The notes under the pieces are model-generated. The model had not been told where the DNA came from. It did not search any database and was given only the letters and a program-made list of their open reading frames with translations. A program made the position numbers and the translations under genes. A DNA stretch of 64,000 bases from an uncultured Spirochaetaceae bacterium (GTDB lineage: Bacteria; Spirochaetota; Spirochaetia; Sphaerochaetales; Sphaerochaetaceae), in assembly GCA_944389975.1 (NCBI GenBank), contig CALXOH010000018.1:1-64000 (forward strand). Reading direction: 5' to 3'. Below, one piece after another: positions 48,653 to 61,262 of the stretch. Each line of letters begins with the position of its first letter. The first letter of the stretch is position 1.

Positions 48653-48736
48653 GCCGGCGTGGTGAAATCGGTAGACACAGTAGACTCAAAATCTGCCGGG
48701 AGCAATCCTGTATCGGTTCAAGTCCGATCGCCGGTA
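48653..48736 (+). tRNA. tRNA-Leu (anticodon CAA)
   Basis: 84 nt. Acceptor GCCGGCG pairs with CGCCGGT (G-T at the end pair). Anticodon arm GTAGA-CTCAAAA-TCTGC gives CAA. A long variable arm is present as in all tRNA-Leu, and the T arm is ATCGG-TTCAAGT-CCGAT. The CCA end is not encoded. The prophage begins directly after it, so its 3' half is probably the attachment site. Confidence 0.95.
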
Positions 48737-48858: not shown

Positions 48859-50073
48859 ATGAGGAAGCCTTATCATCTTAGAAAAATCAAAGGTCGTAAC
48901 ATCAGCGTCGAGTTCGATTTCGCTCCGGGCAAAAGGATATCAACAGGCACAACGGACATGTCGGAAGCCGTGCTCTTCGCCGAGAACTTTCTGAAGAAAC
49001 AGGGATTGCTTTCCATCTCAGCAAAAGTCCCTACCCTCTCTGTCTTTGCAAAGGATTTCTTTATCCGCACGGATCCACAAAGCATCCAAGCACTGGACAA
49101 GCGGTACAAAAGGCAGAAAAGCGATCAGGCATACCTTAACAACCAGTCTTATCTTGAGTACTATATCCTGCCTACTTTCGGCATGTACCTCGTGGATGCC
49201 ATCACGTCCAAAATGATCGAGGACTGGCTGCCATATCTCAAAAGCAAGAAAAGGCCTGACCAAGAACTGGCAGACAACTCTAAAAACAAGGTACTCAACG
49301 CCTTCCGCATCCTTATGGATGATGTCAAAAGAATGGGATACAGGCAAGATAATCCCGCATCCGAAGTGACTATGATAAACGAGCAGGGCAAAGAGAGGGA
49401 GGCTTTGCCTATCGAAATTCTCAAGGTACTCTTCCCTCCTGCACCTGAAGAACGAATAACAGTATGGGGAACCTTGATGTGGGCCACTTATTTTTCCGTT
49501 TTCTACGATACAGGATTCCGCCCAGGAGAAATTGCAAGCTTGAGAGTGTCCGATGTATATCAGACGAGACAAGGCCTTGCCGTAAGCACATCCCATTCTG
49601 TCGACTACAAGACTAGAAAGATAAAGAACCGCGTGAAGACTACAGGCAAAGGATATAGTCAAAGAGCCGGTTTACTTTACTCGGATACGGCCGAGTTACT
49701 CGTAAGGCTGGTCGAGCAGGAAAGACTACACGACGACGATTTCCTTTTCCGCACATCCACGGGACAGCTACTCCGCCCCGAAACCTCCAACAAACACTTC
49801 CAACTGACGATGAAAAGACTGGGTTTTTTCAAAGAAGGTATGGTGCAGTACTGCCTCCGACATACTTACACAACGCAACGACGAGGTGACATGCCTGATG
49901 AAATCCTTGCGATATCGATGGGCCATACGAAGCTAAGGGAAGACTATGACCATCAGAAGGCAGTCGATCTGATCCGTAGGCTTGATGCAGTCAGGGACGA
50001 ATTTTTCCTCAACAGGGAAAGGATGAATCAAGCCCCGGATGTCATACCTTTCGAACTGAAGAAAGAAGGATAA
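48859..50073 (+). CDS. int: Phage integrase (tyrosine recombinase)
   Basis: 404 residues. C-terminal catalytic residues: Arg in DTGFRPGEIASL, His-x-x-Arg in YCLRHTYTT, and the GHTKLREDYDH region with the nucleophile Tyr. An SAM-like core-binding domain (residues about 60-180) precedes it. The -10 TATACT ends 7 nt before ATG 48859, which fixes the start; the frame stays open back through the tRNA, but that is not coding. It should integrate the phage at tRNA-Leu. Two GTGTTAC direct repeats (48797, 48809) upstream may be arm-type binding sites. Confidence 0.93.
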   Translation: MRKPYHLRKIKGRNISVEFDFAPGKRISTGTTDMSEAVLFAENFLKKQGLLSISAKVPTLSVFAKDFFIRTDPQSIQALDKRYKRQKSDQAYLNNQSYLEYYILPTFGMYLVDAITSKMIEDWLPYLKSKKRPDQELADNSKNKVLNAFRILMDDVKRMGYRQDNPASEVTMINEQGKEREALPIEILKVLFPPAPEERITVWGTLMWATYFSVFYDTGFRPGEIASLRVSDVYQTRQGLAVSTSHSVDYKTRKIKNRVKTTGKGYSQRAGLLYSDTAELLVRLVEQERLHDDDFLFRTSTGQLLRPETSNKHFQLTMKRLGFFKEGMVQYCLRHTYTTQRRGDMPDEILAISMGHTKLREDYDHQKAVDLIRRLDAVRDEFFLNRERMNQAPDVIPFELKKEG

Positions 50074-50670: not shown

Positions 50671-51489
50671 ATGAAAAATTTAAAATCATTCAAAACGTAT
50701 CTGAAGAAGAAAGGATTATCGCCCAACACCATCTCAACATATGTGCAGGCAGTGATCGACTATCAAAAGACATATTCGACACTGACCGAGAAAAATGTCC
50801 TAGCATGGAAGGAAAGTTTGAATAGCCGATATAAACCTGCATCAATGGCTGCAAGAATCAAAGGCATGAATGCTTATCTTGAATGCAACGGCATGACTTT
50901 ACGACTTACTGGCGTAAAGCTCCCTCGCATCCATCACTTGGAAAACGTGATATCCATGTCGGACTATCACAAGCTGATCCGCAAGATGTCCGAAAACACC
51001 AGTTTGCTCACACGCAAATGGATGCTACTTTTCAAGACGATAGCTATGACAGGTATGCGAGTGTCTGAAGCCAGACAGATCAGAGTTGAACATGTGGAAG
51101 CTGGCAAGGCCCAAATCTATGCAAAAGGAGGAATATACCGCATCATCCTCTTACCCAAGCGTCTATGTAAGGAACTGCAAAAATACCTGTCGGACATCAA
51201 CCAGGAAGAAGGCTATATCTTTGGGAAGACTACTGAAGAACCATATGCCATAGGAACGATAGAAGCCAAATTGCATTACTATGGGAAGAAGTTCAAGATT
51301 CCGAAGGAAGTTTGCCATCCACATTCACTGAGGCACCTTTTCGGAAAAGGTTTCATGGCATCGAAAGGTGCAGACATTACCGTTCTTGCTGATCTACTGG
51401 GACACGCATCAATCGAGACAACCCGCATCTATACAAGGCGAAGCATGGATGAACAAAGGGATGCTTTAGATAAGATCGTTACGTGGTAA
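50671..51489 (+). CDS. Tyrosine recombinase of the tail-fibre shufflon
   Basis: 272 residues, XerC/XerD-like size. N-terminal core-binding domain (SPNTISTYVQAVIDYQ) and catalytic residues Arg in MTGMRVSEA, His-x-x-Arg in HSLRHLF, His in GHASIETT and nucleophile Tyr in RIYTRRS. The -10 TAGACT lies 7 nt before the ATG. Its stop (TAA 51487-51489) is directly followed by the first TGACGGGTAT crossover core. Position and site arrangement make it the probable cassette invertase; the integrase at 48859 is a separate enzyme. Confidence 0.88.
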   Translation: MKNLKSFKTYLKKKGLSPNTISTYVQAVIDYQKTYSTLTEKNVLAWKESLNSRYKPASMAARIKGMNAYLECNGMTLRLTGVKLPRIHHLENVISMSDYHKLIRKMSENTSLLTRKWMLLFKTIAMTGMRVSEARQIRVEHVEAGKAQIYAKGGIYRIILLPKRLCKELQKYLSDINQEEGYIFGKTTEEPYAIGTIEAKLHYYGKKFKIPKEVCHPHSLRHLFGKGFMASKGADITVLADLLGHASIETTRIYTRRSMDEQRDALDKIVTW

Positions 51490-51499
51490 TGACGGGTAT
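51490..51499 (+). repeat. Crossover core 1 (TGACGGGTAT)
   Basis: Identical 10-bp core, directly after the recombinase stop. It leads into cassette 1 (CTTACATTGCC follows, matching the wider consensus TnACATTgCC). Confidence 0.9.
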
Positions 51500-51751
51500 C
51501 TTACATTGCCCTCTGGCGTGCTGGTACTTTGGGGACGTGTATCAAGATCTTCTTCCGGCTATGCAACCGTTTCGTTTTCGCCAAGTTTCCTGTATGCACC
51601 TACCGTATTCTCAACTTGTGCTTATGCAACCAATAGTCATTCCACTGCTAGTGGAAACGGGTATGTCACATCCGTAACAACAACAGGCATGAAGGTTGGA
51701 ACTATAGATAAATACTACTCTTATTGGATGGCTATAGGGCAGAAAGGATAG
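51491..51751 (+). other. Silent fibre C-terminal cassette 1
   Basis: 86 codons starting DGYLTLPSGVLVLWG and ending YYSYWMAIGQKG. No start codon with ribosome binding site and no promoter. Length, opening and the WxAIG ending match the other four C-termini, so it is a donor segment for the tail-fibre gene. The orientation is opposite to the expressed gene; one inversion with core 5 would fuse it. Confidence 0.88.
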
Positions 51752-51794
51752 GCAAGAATTCAACATCCAATATTCAAGTAATAAGATGTCAAAT

Positions 51795-52058
51795 TTACGT
51801 TTTCCCTATTGCTATCCAATAACACTGCTTAGAGCTGTCGGCCCAGTATCTTCCCAAATAAAAACCTGTTTCGGATGGGTTATATAGATTCATTCCTTCA
51901 TCTTGTAAAAGACCTGCTGTAAGTGAAATAAGACCATATGTAATACAAAATAATTTAGAAAAAGGGGGATTAAAGCTAACATATTGAAGCCCGGCTTTCG
52001 AAAGAGACAAAATCCCCCACCTAAGTTGAATTTCATTGTTCAATGTGACATACCCGTC
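51795..52058 (-). other. Silent fibre C-terminal cassette 2
   Basis: 87 codons starting DGYVTLNNEIQLRWG and ending CYWIAIGKT. Promoterless. Same strand as the expressed gene, so it needs two steps (inversion then re-inversion) to reach it. The middle is quite different from the others, as expected for receptor-binding variants. Confidence 0.88.
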
Positions 52059-52059
52059 A
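52050..52059 (-). repeat. Crossover core 2 (TGACGGGTAT)
   Basis: Identical core on the minus strand, first bases of cassette 2 (GTCACATTGAA follows). Confidence 0.9.
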
Positions 52060-52097
52060 ATATATTGTAATCAAACGATTTATGATATACTTTGTCT

Positions 52098-52541
52098 ATG
52101 CTTACAGACGAACGGAGAAAACAGATTATTTACTATTGGGATCCTGTTGAAGAATGCTATTATATCGGCAGGCAATTCGTTACTAAATCAGAAGAGATCA
52201 AAGCTCGTTGTACACAGATAACTAACTACGAGTGGAGACAACTCATAGAAAATCCAGTCGAAGGGAAACATATTGGGAATGACCCTGCAACAAATAAGCC
52301 AGCGTATATTGATGACCCCCAACCATCGACTGAGGAGCTTTTGAGACAAGAACTGTCGGAACTTAAACAATATCTTTCGGCTACCGACTACCAGGCGATC
52401 AAATGCGGGGAACTTGGTCTATCAATGGCAACGGAATATCCTGAGAGTCATGCGAAAAGAACAGAAGCGCGAGCGAGAATCAACGAAATTGAATCAACTC
52501 TATCAATAACACCACAAGTAATAATATATCCGTCGTATTGA
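52098..52541 (+). CDS. Phage tail-fibre assembly-type protein inside the invertible region
   Basis: 147 residues. Opening LTDERRKQIIYYWD, a middle TEELLRQELSELKQYLS with a coiled-coil look, and ATEYPESHAKRTEAR near the end; similar layouts occur in small proteins encoded next to phage fibres (XkdW/tail chaperone type). It starts at ATG 52098 with TATACT 6 nt upstream (leaderless). Its stop codon TGA is the first three bases of core 3. Confidence 0.7.
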   Translation: MLTDERRKQIIYYWDPVEECYYIGRQFVTKSEEIKARCTQITNYEWRQLIENPVEGKHIGNDPATNKPAYIDDPQPSTEELLRQELSELKQYLSATDYQAIKCGELGLSMATEYPESHAKRTEARARINEIESTLSITPQVIIYPSY

Positions 52542-52548
52542 CGGGTAT
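52539..52548 (+). repeat. Crossover core 3 (TGACGGGTAT)
   Basis: Identical core. Its TGA is the stop of the assembly-type gene, and shifted by one base it opens cassette 3. Confidence 0.9.
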
Positions 52549-52800
52549 ATCACTTTGCCAAACGGAATACTAATTGAATGGAGACAAATCAGTACTAAGC
52601 AAAATGAAGATAAGTCAGTTGAATTTATAAAGCCATTCAAATCGAATAACGTACAAGTTGTTGCTCAAGCAGGAGCAAAAACAGGAGAATCGGCCACCTA
52701 TATAAATGGAATTCAGATTTATTCAATCACTAAATCGTCATTCCGTATATTTTGTGCCATGGCCGCTACTACCGTACGATATATAGCAATCGGATACTAA
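52540..52800 (+). other. Silent fibre C-terminal cassette 3
   Basis: 86 codons starting DGYITLPNGILIEWR and ending TVRYIAIGY. Opposite to the expressed gene. One inversion between cores 3 and 5 would place it behind the fibre N-terminus. It shares SITKSSFRI with cassette 4, so these two are closest relatives. The stop codons of cassettes 3 and 4 overlap on opposite strands. Confidence 0.9.
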
Positions 52801-53060
52801 TATCCGATCGCAAAAATTAATACAGTAGTTGCTGTTCTTCTCAAAATTATTCTAAAAGAGGATTTTGTCATATCACCTTTAGGTATCATTATCCCATTTG
52901 TGTAATCTGAGTAATGGTTAGTACCAGCATCTTGAGCAACAATTGCAAGGCAGTCATTAGGGAAAGGCTTCGCAAAATTCTTTGTACTGTCGGAGTCTTT
53001 CGCTACGAAATAAAATTCCCAGAAGAGTATCTTTTCATTAGGTAATGTAATATACCCGTC
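52797..53060 (-). other. Silent fibre C-terminal cassette 4
   Basis: 87 codons starting DGYITLPNEKILFWE and ending VLIFAIGY. It begins in the stop codon of the expressed fibre gene, head-to-tail with it. Recombination between cores 4 and 5 (same orientation) would delete the present C-terminus and install this one. Confidence 0.9.
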
Positions 53061-53061
53061 A
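53052..53061 (-). repeat. Crossover core 4 (TGACGGGTAT)
   Basis: Identical core on the minus strand. Its TGA ends the expressed fibre gene; ATTACATTACC follows. Confidence 0.9.
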
Positions 53062-53628
53062 ATAGCCAACTGCAATCCAAAAATGACGCCGTCCCCATTC
53101 TATAGTATTCAAATAAAATCCAGACTTTGATACTTTGTTGGATACCGGAGGATTAGCAGCTGGACACCATTCTTGATTGGAGACATCACCTCTGCCAACG
53201 ATCACGCTTGGTATCTTCTGATAAGATGGAGAGAAAGGAATCCAATGAGCCGGGCCATTTGAATAATCAGCATATCCCCAGTGAATTAGTAATCCATTAA
53301 CCAATCTTGCATACCCGTCATTATCATTTATTTCCCAGTCCTCTCCTTCTACGCCTAAAGTCATCCCCATGCTATAGATATGCTTTATCATCTGTGACAA
53401 AGAGCCTATGTCATAGGTGTTGTTGGTCGCAGGCAGATTCGACTGGTTGTTCTTCCACGCTTTTCCCGACAAGTCAGAAACAGTTTGAGCCAGCTCGTTA
53501 AGAGATTGAAGGGTTTCTGCATCTGCTTGCCGCAGTAATTGAATGAGTGTATCGAGCAGTTTCGCCTGTCCGTCTTTTGAGTCTTTAACTGTTACAAGTT
53601 CGCCTGTAGTTTTCGGATAATCTGGCAT
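53059..53628 (-). CDS. Phage tail fibre, expressed copy with switchable C-terminus
   Basis: 189 residues. N-terminal 103 residues are constant (TLIQLLRQADAETLQSLNELAQTV, probably a trimeric coiled coil); from DGY at 104-106 on is the current variable part, 86 codons ending RRHFWIAVGY. The ATG has AGAGGAGAG 8 nt upstream. It sits downstream of another fibre gene in the late operon, so all variants are expressed from the same promoter. The variable end should form the receptor-binding tip. Confidence 0.88.
   Translation of the reverse strand: MPDYPKTTGELVTVKDSKDGQAKLLDTLIQLLRQADAETLQSLNELAQTVSDLSGKAWKNNQSNLPATNNTYDIGSLSQMIKHIYSMGMTLGVEGEDWEINDNDGYARLVNGLLIHWGYADYSNGPAHWIPFSPSYQKIPSVIVGRGDVSNQEWCPAANPPVSNKVSKSGFYLNTIEWGRRHFWIAVGY
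53311..53320 (-). repeat. Crossover core 5 (TGACGGGTAT) in the expressed gene
   Basis: Identical core, codons 104-106 of the expressed fibre. Downstream bases (GCAAGATTGGT) diverge more than in the other copies. Confidence 0.9.
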
Positions 53629-53644: not shown

Positions 53645-54709
53645 TTATAATGCGGCGTATGATGATGTGCCGAAAATTGTGCGATTCAGCTGTGTCTGCA
53701 CATTTCCGTTCAACCCTGATAGATAGTTCAGTATTGCTGTAGTGATATCCGAAGCGGAAAACTTGCCTTCGGCATTGGAAACCAAAACACGATCGGGAGT
53801 AAGCGAAGTACCAACAATCCCTTGTGCCTCGTCCCTGAAGTCTTTCGCTTGCAGTGCATACTTTTTTGCAGAGTATTCCGTGCCGTCGACAGTACCGTCA
53901 GTCTTTGTTGCCCAGGCTTCCGCAAGCGCTGACGCGTCTTCGGCGTTACCTTTAGCGGCAATCGCATCTGTTTTGGCATTATTCGCTTGAGTTGCACTGT
54001 CGGATGCATTCTGTGCCGATTGTCCCGCATTTGTCGCTGACTCAGAGGCCGCAGTAGCACTAGTACCAGCCTTTGCCGCATAGTGCTTAGCAGAGTACTC
54101 GCCGTTTGCTACGACACTGTTCTCAGGGTCGTTGGCCCATCTTTGTGCAAGGGTTGCGCTCTCTTCTGCGTTGGTTTCCGAGGTATGCGCTTCACTCGCT
54201 TTTTGGACTGCGGTGTTGGCAAAGCCGGAGGCGTCCTGAGCAGATTTCGAGGCATTGGATGCAAGCTGTTGCATAGACTCAACCAAGGAGTCGTAGAGGT
54301 TTTGGATTGAGGTTAGGGCCGCTCCCCTGGCACCTGAATTGTTGTCTTGCCCTATCGCCGCAAGCGCCTTGTTCAAAGCTACCTGCAGAGCGCCAAGATC
54401 TTCGGATACTTTGGCATCCCAAGTCTGATTGTCGCTGGAGATCTTTTGACTAAAAGCCGATATGGCATTTTCGATCGCACTCTTGAGCTGTTCTACCGCG
54501 GCCTCTGCTGCGACAGCTCCAGCCTCGGCGTCCGTTGCGACTTTGCCGAGAGTTTGGATAAGTGTCTTTATCGCGTAGTGCTTTGCCGACTGGGGCACGC
54601 CTGATACAACACGGAAGGCAAGAAGCACATCGTCTTCCAGCGGTGTGCCCGTGTCTTCCGTACTTAACGCCTTGTCTATGTTCAGATCTGAGATATCTTG
54701 TAACGCCAT
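53645..54709 (-). CDS. Phage tail fibre/collar protein with AKHYA repeats
   Basis: 354 residues, rich in Ala, Ser and Asn. Three repeats of the type YSAKHYAxKA (residues about 40, 205 and 285), and a long Ala-rich segment that looks like a trimeric coiled coil (ASKSAQDASGFANTAVQKA). This is the usual shaft of T7 gp17-like or collar fibres. It should connect the tail tip to the switchable fibre encoded downstream. Confidence 0.83.
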   Translation of the reverse strand: MALQDISDLNIDKALSTEDTGTPLEDDVLLAFRVVSGVPQSAKHYAIKTLIQTLGKVATDAEAGAVAAEAAVEQLKSAIENAISAFSQKISSDNQTWDAKVSEDLGALQVALNKALAAIGQDNNSGARGAALTSIQNLYDSLVESMQQLASNASKSAQDASGFANTAVQKASEAHTSETNAEESATLAQRWANDPENSVVANGEYSAKHYAAKAGTSATAASESATNAGQSAQNASDSATQANNAKTDAIAAKGNAEDASALAEAWATKTDGTVDGTEYSAKKYALQAKDFRDEAQGIVGTSLTPDRVLVSNAEGKFSASDITTAILNYLSGLNGNVQTQLNRTIFGTSSYAAL

Positions 54710-57700: not shown

Positions 57701-58251
57701 ACGAAAACAATCGGGAGGGTTTTTGTCCTGATGACTCCGTCGGGGACGATGATCTTTTCCGTAAAGTCTGCCAAGACGCCCTTGTATAGATCGTCGACGT
57801 TGTCGTATACGGCCTCAAGAAGAAGATGCACAAGAGAATCACTTTCGTCTGATGGATATAGGATTTTCTTTCCCTCGAATACTACACCCCCTTCCGGTGC
57901 AAGTACATCGGAAAAAAGTGAAGCATAGGACTTGAATGAGATCTTGACGTGCACCCAGTCAGGATCGTTGGCCATATCCACTGTCGCCTTTCCGTCGCTG
58001 AAGCCCTCGAAGATAATGACATCGTCGTTTGTTATCCGCACGAGTTTATCCGTCGTATGGAAAAGTGCAGCATCCTCCAAATTCAGCGCACGTATTGTAA
58101 GGGAGACGTTGGATATGTCTGAGCTCTTCCCGCCAAGGGAAAAGCCCTCCTTTATCTTGATGCTCGTATCCACTACGCGATAGGAAATATTGGTCCACTC
58201 CTTTGCAATGCCGTCCGCTTGTAGTTCCCTGATATATACCTTCAATCCCAT
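54772..58251 (-). CDS. Phage tail tip / central fibre protein
   Basis: 1159 residues. The N-terminal 450 residues look like a tail-hub domain (MGLKVYIREL start, LLILDPWKVDG, TVGEVVQISGLPY). The middle holds Ig-like or lectin-like strand repeats (residues 520-760). The C-terminal part has a tail-tip signature (KASRITEGYFSGSFDCDV). Analogous to lambda gpJ or siphovirus Tal. It overlaps the tape-measure gene by 10 nt. Confidence 0.8.
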   Translation of the reverse strand: MGLKVYIRELQADGIAKEWTNISYRVVDTSIKIKEGFSLGGKSSDISNVSLTIRALNLEDAALFHTTDKLVRITNDDVIIFEGFSDGKATVDMANDPDWVHVKISFKSYASLFSDVLAPEGGVVFEGKKILYPSDESDSLVHLLLEAVYDNVDDLYKGVLADFTEKIIVPDGVIRTKTLPIVFVPEGESIFECLETILYENRLAYVVKLGQLLILDPWKVDGVTPRQLLLSSFMSRPTIKQQPIRTRSHMVLSLAEYSYDDNYYVYDSGDPDEEGSGAQTLEPGATYPEDGDPEKLDYTCEEEDEKNIVYAKNARLETTIVKVEDGATTAANIQIDAEVTPTEATVLFTNTENVSVGVQRYRVLSDRAYWKKYSKEIKDIEKEGEEEEYDADYIADSEDAEAFIKNYHMQEYAENADISLSSSKVEITVGEVVQISGLPYKLLCVGVQTTFEGRKTPVYKYDFVPLVVVESTTGISHSGTKPSNGFRYLFLELSQTYFHYNSNGEADPASQVIIAHAQRVNIASQCLWKLGGVAQQGTGDTLSIPISVMGERENLLVEVTAGGITKGLTITRLQDGQNGGDPQYYFQWGASYDVQPDDTVDIITWGDIAIVWDNIAFITNSGVWSPSVPERPTEGESYLWQKFWNYKESKWEYVCLSGPPSADFSLEINPTTFRLSSRGVTRPDQKISAICRRINTAAPCAWEVQAPATWAYVTSGVDSEIEITIPANRQDVKSITVTCSVADIGITKSFVVTGVQEGQEKTEYLGIYPSLDQVPVSTTEGPLILGDHILVTDLATGARIPYYWTGTQWAIADGSTPASIAFDVFQDTIFDALQAPGTQTIQSVINLFCANLGSFNIFSFYAKFRNLLVGDGNGTAGSGLSVRIYDYQNGQKVTPVFVVMYDDKTLFQIDPASGRIFFGQPDEQLTAPAAGFMYDPENQEIVSANRQTIIKSNGTIECYGLEAKASRITEGYFSGSFDCDVIRTEPAPEVDTGTQWTLSVSVDQAKKLVDEIRTWLNEDQYFSSDLIRVRCPDLPELVFLKASCEVANNGRSANYEVSFLDSYGSGIDLTEYFEVLRRDNAFEDFEPTTAWTPYIQNKNYVSVPNQSIYINQALTIYKVTGGNKLFLNCPISPSEDDLLYNIKEYQVYVDSEGFVHMKF

Positions 58252-61200
58252 GATCCTATGACTCCTTCCGTCTGCAAGCTCTTGATGTTACGATACACGG
58301 CTCTGCCTACTTCTTCCGAATCAAGCCCGTAAATATCCCCGTCGATGCGAATTACTATCGTGCTCGAAGAGTACGAATCGCGCTGCATTTCCGCAGCGGC
58401 TTCCCGTGTCGTCAAAAGTGCTGCAATGTTTTCCTGTTGTGCCTGATTGAGGATGAGTTCTCCCGGGTTTACCCTTGCAAGATGCTGATCTCCAGTCGAG
58501 GGCACTCCTGGAACCTTCGGGACTATACCACCGGTTGCATACTTTGCAGCCAATCCACTGACGATGCCAGATGCAACATACGCAGCTATCGACCCTGCAG
58601 TGGCGATGCCTGCCTGTACCCAGTTCATCGATATCATCTGGGCAACGGCCTCTGCCGCAAGCTGATGGCCCAAGGACATGAGGATATCTGCAAGAGCCTC
58701 GAGTGCAGCCTTTCCCAAGGAGTGCCATGCATCCTCTCCCGACGCCGTGGCTTCCCTTTCTTCCTCCAGGCTTTTGATGTTTTCATCCAAACCCTTCTGT
58801 TTGTCCTCTGCAATCTTCAGGGCATCTTCGGCGGCCGCGATATCCGCTTCGTTTCCCAAGAGTACTGCCTCGTCGTACTCTTTCTGCTTTTCGTTTACTT
58901 CTTCAAGAGCGGCTGCCCTTTCATCTTCTTTTTCTGCTATCAGCTCATCGATTTCCGCCACCCTTTCATCGATGGTAAAAAGACTAGAAATGGAATCGGA
59001 AAAAGCAGATCCCATCGTCTGCATGAAGGATGTGGCTGAGCCTTTCGCAAATGCCTCCATGTTTGCACCGAATTGTTCCCAGCCCTCGGTATTGGAGAGC
59101 TCTGCGGAGAGATCTTTAACCTTGTCTGCCATTGCATCGAGTTCTTCGCTGGTGGCATTTCCGCTGGCGGCCATACTCTCCATTTCTTTCGTGTAGTCTC
59201 TGATTGCAGACTTGTATGCCGCGATCTTCGCGGAGTTCTCGTCGTAGTATTCACCAAGTCTTGCTTCAACTTCAGAAGATGCCGCAAGCTTTGAGTCGAG
59301 AGAGGCTCCGATGTCATCGCCCGGACTAGAAGAAGGAGTACCACCAGAACCTCCATCCGAGGCCTCCGGAACACCCCCGATCAAAGGTTTTCCCGTTGCT
59401 TTCGCCAGCTCGTTGTAAGACTCGGTCAGACTATCGATCTGTCCCTTCAGATAACTGTACCTAGCACTTCCGAGCTCAACCGTATCCAGCTCATCCATGA
59501 GCGTGGTGATGTAGTCCTCGGATGCCTCCATGTTTGCCAGCGTGATCTCGCCATACTCCATAGCCTCGACATTGCCTGCTGAGTAAGCGTTTGCAAGCCG
59601 TAAGACTTCGTTTGCCGCCTTTGCATTTGTCGCAGATAGCCCGTCTAGTACTTCGGTAAAGCCCTCGGAGTACATTTCCGCAGCTTCCTGCATGGATGCT
59701 GCCATATTCTCCTTCAGACGATCGTAGCCTCCGGAAAGTGAGTCGATACGGGCCTTCTGCTCCACGATTTCATCCGTCCATCTTTGCCAATCTGAAGCAA
59801 TGTTTTCATCCAGCAACAACGAGCGACCAAGATGATCCAGTTCCTCCCGGCTTATCCCTGCCTGATTTGCAAGCCCGTCAAGCTTTAAATTCATCTCGTC
59901 AATGACATTGTTTGCCGCGGCTATGTCTGACGCATTGGATCTCATCGCCCTCTCTGCATCCGCAAGAGCCGTCCCCATCTCCGTAAGGGCTCGGATAAAG
60001 GCTTCCTGCGACTGCTCGGCCATTGCCGCCGATGTCTCGTCGGTTGCGGTCTTGGCGTTCTCCTGCGCCGTCTTGTATCGTTCCAAAGCAAGCTTGACAT
60101 TACCAAGCGCTGTGTCGAGGTTCTCGGCCTCGGAAGTGTTACCGGTAAAGCTGTCTATCATGTCCGCAAGCATGCCCGCCACATCCTGTACAGTGGGTTC
60201 GAAGAAGCTACCGATGGAACGGCCCGCATTGGATAAGGAGGTTGCAAGTTTCTCGACACCAGTGGTAACAGATGCGGCCGCTGCAGCTGTAAGACCCGCT
60301 GTATCTTCCATCGCTTCGAGATTGTTCGCAAAGCGTTCTGCATTCGTACCCGCAAGCTGTAGTGCAGTCCTTCCCGCCTCAACGGAACCGAAGAGGTCTA
60401 TAAGTGTCTTGTCGGTGCTCTCTGCATAGTCCTCCATCACAGTGAGAATTTCGGCAAGAGTCATGCCCGATGCGGTAAGCTCTGCGAAAGTTGTAGCACC
60501 AAGTCCAGCCGCTTCTGCCGCAAGGGCAAGGTTCTCCGCACCGACTTGTCCTTGCTTTCCAAGCTCTGACAGCAGCTGGTTCAAGCCCGTGATGGCTTGG
60601 CTTGTCTGGGTACCTGCCGCAGTGGATGTTGCAAGTGCAGCTCCGATCTGCTCAAAGGACACTCCGAAGGCTGATGCCGTAGGGATGACTTGGGCAAGCG
60701 AGGATGCAAGCTGTCCTATAGTAGTCATGCCGAGGTTCTGTGTCTGTATCATCACGCCCTGGACTCTTTCGGCTTCTTCCACAGACATCCCGTATGCGTT
60801 TATAACCGCCGCCGTTGCAGTAACCGTCTCCGATAGATCTGCAAAGCCGCCCTTTGCCGCCGCTGCGGAAGAACGAAGGAAATCCATCGCAATTCCCATG
60901 TCTTCCGTCACCGGAACGCCCGAAGACAGTGCCTCGTAAAGTGCATTACCTATCTGATCTGCAGCAATGCCTGTCTCGGAAGAGAGGGAAAGTATCCTGT
61001 CCCGGAGATTCGAGACATTGACCGAAACATCCCCAAACAGAGTCGATGCCGCACGGATGCTGTTCTCAAGCGCTGCAGTATCCTCTGCTATCTTTCTGAT
61101 TCCAACACCTATAGCGGCGAGGAAAAGCCCTGCCTTGAATTTGCTTGTAAGCGATTCGATTCCCTTCAGACTGTGGGAAATCCTGCTGTTGAGGTTCTTC

Positions 61201-61262
61201 AAATCCCTGTCGAGCTGTGTCTGATCTATCCTGGTATCTATCCTGATGTCGCCGTCACTCAT
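58242..61262 (-). CDS. Phage tail tape measure protein (TP901 family)
   Basis: 1006 residues. The N-terminal 350 residues match the TP901 tape-measure core: NSIRAASTLFGDV, SSETGIAADQIGNALY, AVINAYGMSVEEAE, GTQTSQAITGLNQLL. Then comes a long Ala-rich helical region with coiled coils (residues about 800-880, EEKQKEYDE type) and a short hydrophobic segment near the end. Its length sets a tail of roughly 140-150 nm. A strong AAGGAGGT site precedes the ATG. Confidence 0.95.
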   Translation of the reverse strand: MSDGDIRIDTRIDQTQLDRDLKNLNSRISHSLKGIESLTSKFKAGLFLAAIGVGIRKIAEDTAALENSIRAASTLFGDVSVNVSNLRDRILSLSSETGIAADQIGNALYEALSSGVPVTEDMGIAMDFLRSSAAAAKGGFADLSETVTATAAVINAYGMSVEEAERVQGVMIQTQNLGMTTIGQLASSLAQVIPTASAFGVSFEQIGAALATSTAAGTQTSQAITGLNQLLSELGKQGQVGAENLALAAEAAGLGATTFAELTASGMTLAEILTVMEDYAESTDKTLIDLFGSVEAGRTALQLAGTNAERFANNLEAMEDTAGLTAAAAASVTTGVEKLATSLSNAGRSIGSFFEPTVQDVAGMLADMIDSFTGNTSEAENLDTALGNVKLALERYKTAQENAKTATDETSAAMAEQSQEAFIRALTEMGTALADAERAMRSNASDIAAANNVIDEMNLKLDGLANQAGISREELDHLGRSLLLDENIASDWQRWTDEIVEQKARIDSLSGGYDRLKENMAASMQEAAEMYSEGFTEVLDGLSATNAKAANEVLRLANAYSAGNVEAMEYGEITLANMEASEDYITTLMDELDTVELGSARYSYLKGQIDSLTESYNELAKATGKPLIGGVPEASDGGSGGTPSSSPGDDIGASLDSKLAASSEVEARLGEYYDENSAKIAAYKSAIRDYTKEMESMAASGNATSEELDAMADKVKDLSAELSNTEGWEQFGANMEAFAKGSATSFMQTMGSAFSDSISSLFTIDERVAEIDELIAEKEDERAAALEEVNEKQKEYDEAVLLGNEADIAAAEDALKIAEDKQKGLDENIKSLEEEREATASGEDAWHSLGKAALEALADILMSLGHQLAAEAVAQMISMNWVQAGIATAGSIAAYVASGIVSGLAAKYATGGIVPKVPGVPSTGDQHLARVNPGELILNQAQQENIAALLTTREAAAEMQRDSYSSSTIVIRIDGDIYGLDSEEVGRAVYRNIKSLQTEGVIGSWD

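Follow-up and report, generated by a model that had tools for sequence, protein, structure and literature searches.

Genes and sites of the fibre-tip locus

The stretch of DNA analysed here (the window, 64,000 nt) belongs to contig C18 of a Spirochaetaceae-type genome (G000) and holds the left part of a prophage. At positions 50671-53628 this prophage carries a tyrosine recombinase gene, a tail-fibre gene, four further cassettes homologous to the tip of that fibre, and a tail-fibre-assembly-like (Tfa-like) gene. The features of the locus are listed below.

50671-51489, plus strand: XerC/D-like tyrosine recombinase, 272 aa (PF00589, E 6e-24)
51490-51499, plus strand: core 1 (TGACGGGTAT), exact match, directly after the recombinase stop codon
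51491-51751, plus strand: predicted silent tip cassette c1, 86 aa (PF21882, E 7.8e-8)
51795-52058, minus strand: predicted silent tip cassette c2, 87 aa (PF21882, E 1.6e-3, below the cut-off; full-length alignment with the other cassettes)
52050-52059, minus strand: core 2, exact match
52098-52541, plus strand: Tfa-like gene, approximately 148 codons (phrog_188, E 1.2e-4)
52539-52548, plus strand: core 3, exact match, overlapping the tfa stop codon TGA
52540-52800, plus strand: predicted silent tip cassette c3, 86 aa (PF21882, E 2.7e-8)
52797-53060, minus strand: predicted silent tip cassette c4, 87 aa (PF21882, E 5.7e-7)
53052-53061, minus strand: core 4, exact match
53059-53628, minus strand: expressed tail-fibre gene, 189 aa (PF21882, E 2e-4 on residues 109-189), made up of a constant stem (53320-53628) and tip cassette c5 (53059-53319)
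53311-53320, minus strand: core 5 (expression-site core), exact match
Putative crossover site of the array: TAATGACGGGTAT

Five exact copies of TGACGGGTAT were found in the window, two on the plus strand and three on the minus strand. The number expected by chance was 0.10, and none of 100 shuffled sequences gave five copies. With its flanking bases, the conserved site reads TA-W-TGACGGGTAT. A near-core on contig C8 of the same genome (position 41268) opens no gp53-like cassette and was treated as a chance match. Each core of the array opens a reading frame in the same phase, which begins with D-G-Y and runs for 86, 87, 86, 87 or 86 codons. D-G-Y is written GAC-GGG-TAT in all five cassettes; judged by codon usage, the probability that any one D-G-Y codon set is common to the five is about 3e-5. 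Because these codons are the same in 5/5 cassettes despite a DNA identity of 50-58% between cassettes outside the core, the pattern indicates that the constraint at the core acts on the DNA, as a recombination site would need.

The five cassette products align end to end, and all match the Pfam family Gp53-like_C (PF21882), three over the curated cut-off and two below it (E 2e-4 and 1.6e-3). Only c5 is fused in frame to a constant part. Cassettes c1-c4 have neither this part nor a recognisable promoter, from which they are predicted to be silent. Promoter-like matches were no commoner than in shuffled sequence and the terminator scan was equal to shuffles or nearly so; it is plausible that c1-c4 are promoterless. 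An earlier reading of this DNA, made from its letters without database searches (the sequence-only reading), had described five identical cores, cassettes of 86-87 codons starting with DGY, and one fibre gene accompanied by four C-terminal cassettes. All of this was borne out: the cores were exact, in place and beyond chance, the phase was the same in 5/5 cassettes, and all tips were homologous to a gp53-like or H-lectin-like tip.

The predicted structure of c5 (mean predicted local distance difference test score, pLDDT, 84.7) resembles R-pyocin fibre tips (6cl6 and 6ct8), H-type lectins (SLL-2 and the Helix agglutinins) and gp53 of phage AP22. In the PDB, a profile built from the sequences of 25 tips matched gp53 and pyocin fibres. 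Because of these resemblances, the role of the tip is likely to be receptor binding, probably to surface sugars. The five tips may bind different receptors. Among annotated phages, no protein match to the fibre and no DNA match to the locus were found.

The recombinase of the locus

The recombinase consists of a catalytic domain and a region with weak matches to a SAM-like core-binding domain, and has no arm-binding domain. The catalytic residues of the family are present (R130, K152, H218, R221, H245 and Y254), and its closest solved relatives are XerC-like, XerA and XerD. The sequence-only reading had a XerC/D-like recombinase ending at core 1, and indeed its stop codon TAA (51487-51489) abuts the core, which starts at 51490. 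Recombinases with 58-76% identity adjoin the four other gp53-like arrays that we found (loci L019, L020, L034 and L035). In these arrays and in the window, the recombinase stop codon lies a few bases or less from a core, and in the more distant L024 and L025 it lies at or inside the core. The core differs by recombinase lineage (TGACGGGTAT, TGAGGGGTAT and AGTAGCGGTTA). The enzyme encoded at 50671-51489 is most likely the catalyst of inversions at this locus.

Orthologous prophages differ by inversion between cores

The gp53-like arrays contained five tips in the window, three in L019 (contig C6 of the same genome), five in congener G013, ten in L034 and at least two in L035, where the contig ends inside the array. 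Over the five arrays, 25/25 cassettes had an open frame in the phase dictated by the core, and every gp53-like family match in 48 congeners fell within these arrays. The array on C6 (L019:7133-13801) is a second, independent tail-fibre shufflon array in the same genome, with its own recombinase (58% identical to that of the window) and the core AGTAGCGGTTA; the ten-tip L034 array has the core TGAGGGGTAT.

The prophage of G013 (L020/L036) is orthologous to that carrying L019, lies in the same chromosomal neighbourhood and is 88-95% identical to it. In L019, the 1595-aa fibre carries tip A, and tip B is beside the recombinase; L020 has tip B on its 1573-aa fibre and tip A beside the recombinase. 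BLAST segments between the two end in cores, where synteny breaks. When L019 was inverted in silico between its outermost cores, it became collinear with L020 across both junctions (88-94% identity). By this comparison, everything between the outermost cores is inverted in one locus relative to the other, and the breakpoints fall in the core. Looking in relatives for the same cores in a different order, a check suggested from the sequence alone, therefore gave a positive result in this orthologous pair. L020 carries further tips between the outer ones, so that cassettes are also gained or lost.

The L035 tip adjacent to the recombinase is 95.6% identical to the L034 tip that adjoins the expressed one, and the two tips therefore occupy different array positions; the recombinase genes of L034 and L035 are only about 80% identical. 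Tips of L020 and L034 are 64-69% identical though their recombinases and cores differ. Cassettes seem to move between phage lineages.

Proposed mechanism and alternative explanations

We read the locus as a shufflon, a system of multi-way DNA inversion that exchanges the receptor-binding tip on the tail fibre of a prophage, with a probability of roughly 0.88. Among the features of a shufflon it has at least three short sites, some of them opposed, each opening an alternative C-terminal cassette, one constant gene fused in frame to a single cassette, and a linked recombinase. The recombinase would pair two oppositely oriented cores and invert the DNA between them. Because every core lies in the first tip codons (xDGY), exchange at core 5 would join a new tip in frame to the stem. 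Enumeration of inversions between opposite cores gave 64 arrangements for the window array, in which 5/5 tips reach the expressed position; the same enumeration gave 967,680 arrangements for the ten-tip L034 array. The window copy is presumably active, and switching of the tip may change the host range of the phage.

Several points weigh against this interpretation. No alternative arrangement of the window locus itself was seen in the assembly or in IMG/VR, the exact junction patterns of the locus had no match in IMG/VR contigs, and no exact core was found in the assembly outside the window array. Three of the cores share one orientation, and deletion between such direct repeats would be possible; for the array to persist, deletion must be rare or suppressed. 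The case for the window recombinase as the putative catalyst is drawn from its genetic linkage and from precedent. The earlier claim that this recombinase shuffles the segments gained support for its mechanism from the L019/L020 inversion and the L034/L035 tip positions, while inversion at the window locus itself was not seen.

The lack of a second state, together with the strong divergence of the cassettes (50-58% DNA identity), would also fit a decayed fibre cluster, in which tips arose by tandem or inverted duplication plus horizontal gene acquisition, shuffling has ended and the recombinase is an unconnected, integrase-like neighbour. We consider this unlikely, since the phase set by the core is kept open in 25/25 cassettes of five arrays, the core codons are identical, the recombinase stop codon lies at or a few bases from a core in 5/5 arrays, and a core-to-core inversion separates the orthologous prophages. 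The same inversion bears on another explanation, that co-infecting phages draw on the cassettes as a reservoir and swap them by homologous recombination or gene conversion at conserved short sites, with the recombinase in a minor part. The 64-69% identity of L020 and L034 tips despite different cores and recombinases would be in line with such a reservoir. RecA-type exchange, however, needs more than the 10-14 bp that the core offers; moreover, L019 and L020 differ by a clean whole-block inversion, and none of the gp53-like arrays found in the genus lacks a linked recombinase, so we hold this explanation to be less likely still.

The recombinase might instead have another target, for example a specificity locus of a type I restriction system, and adjoin the fibre cluster by accident. 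Its next relatives (41-43% identity) do flank HsdS loci, but no HsdS homologue was detected beside the window locus or its close relatives, and the cores start where the recombinase gene stops and mark off the fibre tips, which makes this the most improbable of the explanations that we weighed.

A Tfa-like gene inside the array

The Tfa-like gene, which the sequence-only reading had overlooked, sits between c2 and c3; the start of its listed open reading frame is TTG 52092. Its stop codon TGA forms the first three bases of core 3. Tfa homologues were also found inside the arrays of L019, L020, L034 and L035; their stop codon lies within the core in L019 and L020 and a few bases ahead of it in L034. 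With cores on both sides, the Tfa-like gene would invert with the array, and the enumeration placed it on the fibre strand in half of the 64 arrangements.

Prophage and host

Other features of the prophage are as follows.

48653-48736, plus strand: tRNA-Leu(CAA), likely attachment site; the prophage begins nearby
53645-54709, minus strand: tail-fibre gene lying upstream in the late operon, 354 aa (weak matches to tail-fibre phrogs, best E 7e-7)
58242-61262, minus strand: tape measure protein, 1006 aa (phrog_1533, E 6e-40)

A tyrosine integrase gene, separate from the shufflon recombinase, lies downstream of the tRNA gene and has its end at 50073. A copy of the tRNA 3' end (a 15-bp repeat) at positions 86691-86705 of contig C18 suggests a prophage length of about 38 kb, although the match is weak (E 0.06). 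The late genes are read from the minus strand and end with the fibre gene at 53059-53628. Terminase, portal, head, major tail and tape measure proteins were recognised, in agreement with the prophage of the sequence-only reading; because a tail sheath was not noticed among them, the phage is probably siphovirus-like and long-tailed. The spirochaete host suggested by that reading was supported, since the congeners with close relatives of the recombinase are recorded as uncultured Spirochaetaceae.

Other arrays linked to the recombinase clade

More distant recombinases of the clade (approximately 32-38% identity) adjoin arrays of collar-type tips in L024, L025 and L089. By profile comparison, the collar-type and lectin-like tips are apparently unrelated. 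L024 (8013-10930) is a collar-type shufflon with seven cassettes and L025 (1-4006) has nine; their cores are TAAGGAACATTA and RGGGACATT, respectively, and the tfa stop codon lies inside the core in L024. In another genus of the family, L089 (70-4946; G148:C3) has at least 21 collar-type cassettes of 67-85 aa (5 on the plus and 16 on the minus strand) with the core TGAGGCATT; a recombinase of this clade adjoins them, and the start of the contig falls within the array. To our knowledge, this array is larger than any known phage shufflon. The L087 and L023 contigs end soon after a recombinase of the collar-type clade, and a core-like sequence lies at the stop codon of that recombinase. In L023 (11719-12627) and L029 (11689-12330), clade recombinases lie beside the mraZ/mraW/ftsW cell-division genes at contig ends, which suggests assembly breaks in invertible arrays.

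A third type of tip was seen in L040 (1563-5160; IMG/VR 3300035502_000186), where six fibre C-termini (NYNYE...YRRIGTNT) are placed head to head at a palindromic ATAATTATAATTAT core and a related recombinase lies in the same viral contig. In L021, L030, L038 and L091-L095 (Treponema-like genomes and two viral contigs), clade recombinases adjoin HsdS type I restriction genes; these HsdS-linked relatives are 41-43% identical to the window recombinase. In the recombinase tree, the HsdS and collar sets occupied well-supported parts, and the lectin set fell together on a branch of its own that is weak (40/60). No relative came up in two scans of IMG/VR with protein patterns from the recombinase, and a DNA pattern for the DKIVTW end found six loci there, of which L038 (HsdS) and L040 (third tip type) were informative. 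Recombinase matches in annotated phages were below 60% identity, and the best of them, MT836828, is an HsdS locus.

It is tempting to see in this one small XerC/D-like clade a general cassette-shuffling platform of spirochaetes and their phages that serves unrelated cargoes (lectin-like, collar-type and third-type fibre tips, and HsdS), with turnover of the fibre-assembly gene, in the phage versions, coupling chaperone expression to tip choice. We regard this combined proposal as speculative and, on balance, doubtful.

Relation to known inversion systems

Rin is a tyrosine-recombinase shufflon of receptor-binding proteins (RBPs) in Bifidobacterium prophages, with 11-bp rix sites and inversion seen in reads (PMC6109161), and a Rin-type shufflon with H-type lectin cassettes occurs in Eggerthella lenta prophages (PMC8778435). 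Rin and the window locus have in common a prophage RBP with a constant N-terminus and several C-terminal cassettes, short asymmetric crossover sites (11 bp in Rin) where the cassettes begin and, at one end of the array, an armless XerD-like tyrosine recombinase; the window tips resemble the lectin domains of the E. lenta cassettes. The window locus differs from Rin in host phylum and core, in the Tfa-like gene within the array, and in cores that touch the stop codon of the recombinase gene and overlap that of tfa. Its recombinase and those of its sister arrays are related to HsdS and collar-fibre invertases. We considered the name Rin and did not adopt it, since that name would presuppose orthology of the recombinases. 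Inversion was seen in reads for Rin, whereas the window locus was examined as assembled sequence. The sequence-only reading had called tyrosine-recombinase shufflons rare among siphovirus fibres; such systems of siphophages had already been described as Rin (PMC6109161, PMC8778435). Combining a tail fibre with a tyrosine recombinase is therefore already known as a principle, first from Bifidobacterium and then from E. lenta.

The pilV shufflon of R64 (Rci, sfx sites) resembles the window locus in its end-placed tyrosine recombinase and in the multi-way inversion of C-terminal cassettes, but its target is the tip adhesin of a plasmid type IV pilus, whereas here it is a prophage tail fibre. In R64, Rci acts at short asymmetric sfx sites of 19 bp. 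Inversion also switches tail-fibre C-termini in Mu (Gin), P1 (Cin), p15B (Min) and FR-phi (gin shufflon); Mu and P1 switch the matching fibre-assembly genes along with them. In the FR-phi system the tip was shown to decide host entry (PMC13418256). All of these use serine recombinases, however, and a serine Gin/Min-type system was ruled out for the window by its recombinase family (PF00589, tyrosine). The HsdS shufflons of type I restriction systems have recombinases of the same broad clade, but their cargo is DNA-recognition specificity, whereas the cargo here is a fibre tip.

Our search of the open-access literature turned up no spirochaete system of this kind, and within that literature this is apparently the first tyrosine-recombinase RBP shufflon in Spirochaetota. 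Its new aspects are the host phylum, the presence of a Tfa-like gene in the array, the arrangement of stop codons and cores, a recombinase related to those of HsdS shufflons, and some of the array sizes. Through the recombinase, fibre-tip arrays are tied to HsdS shufflons and to collar-tip arrays that reach at least 21 cassettes, and the recombinase-core pairs, with three related lineages and three cores, are a ready set for studies of target-site specificity. Very little is known about the phages of gut-type spirochaetes and how they choose their hosts. The locus looks like a receptor-binding tip switch for such a phage, with comparative evidence from sister prophages of exchange at the predicted kind of site, and it extends tyrosine-recombinase RBP shufflons from phages of Actinobacteria to Spirochaetota.

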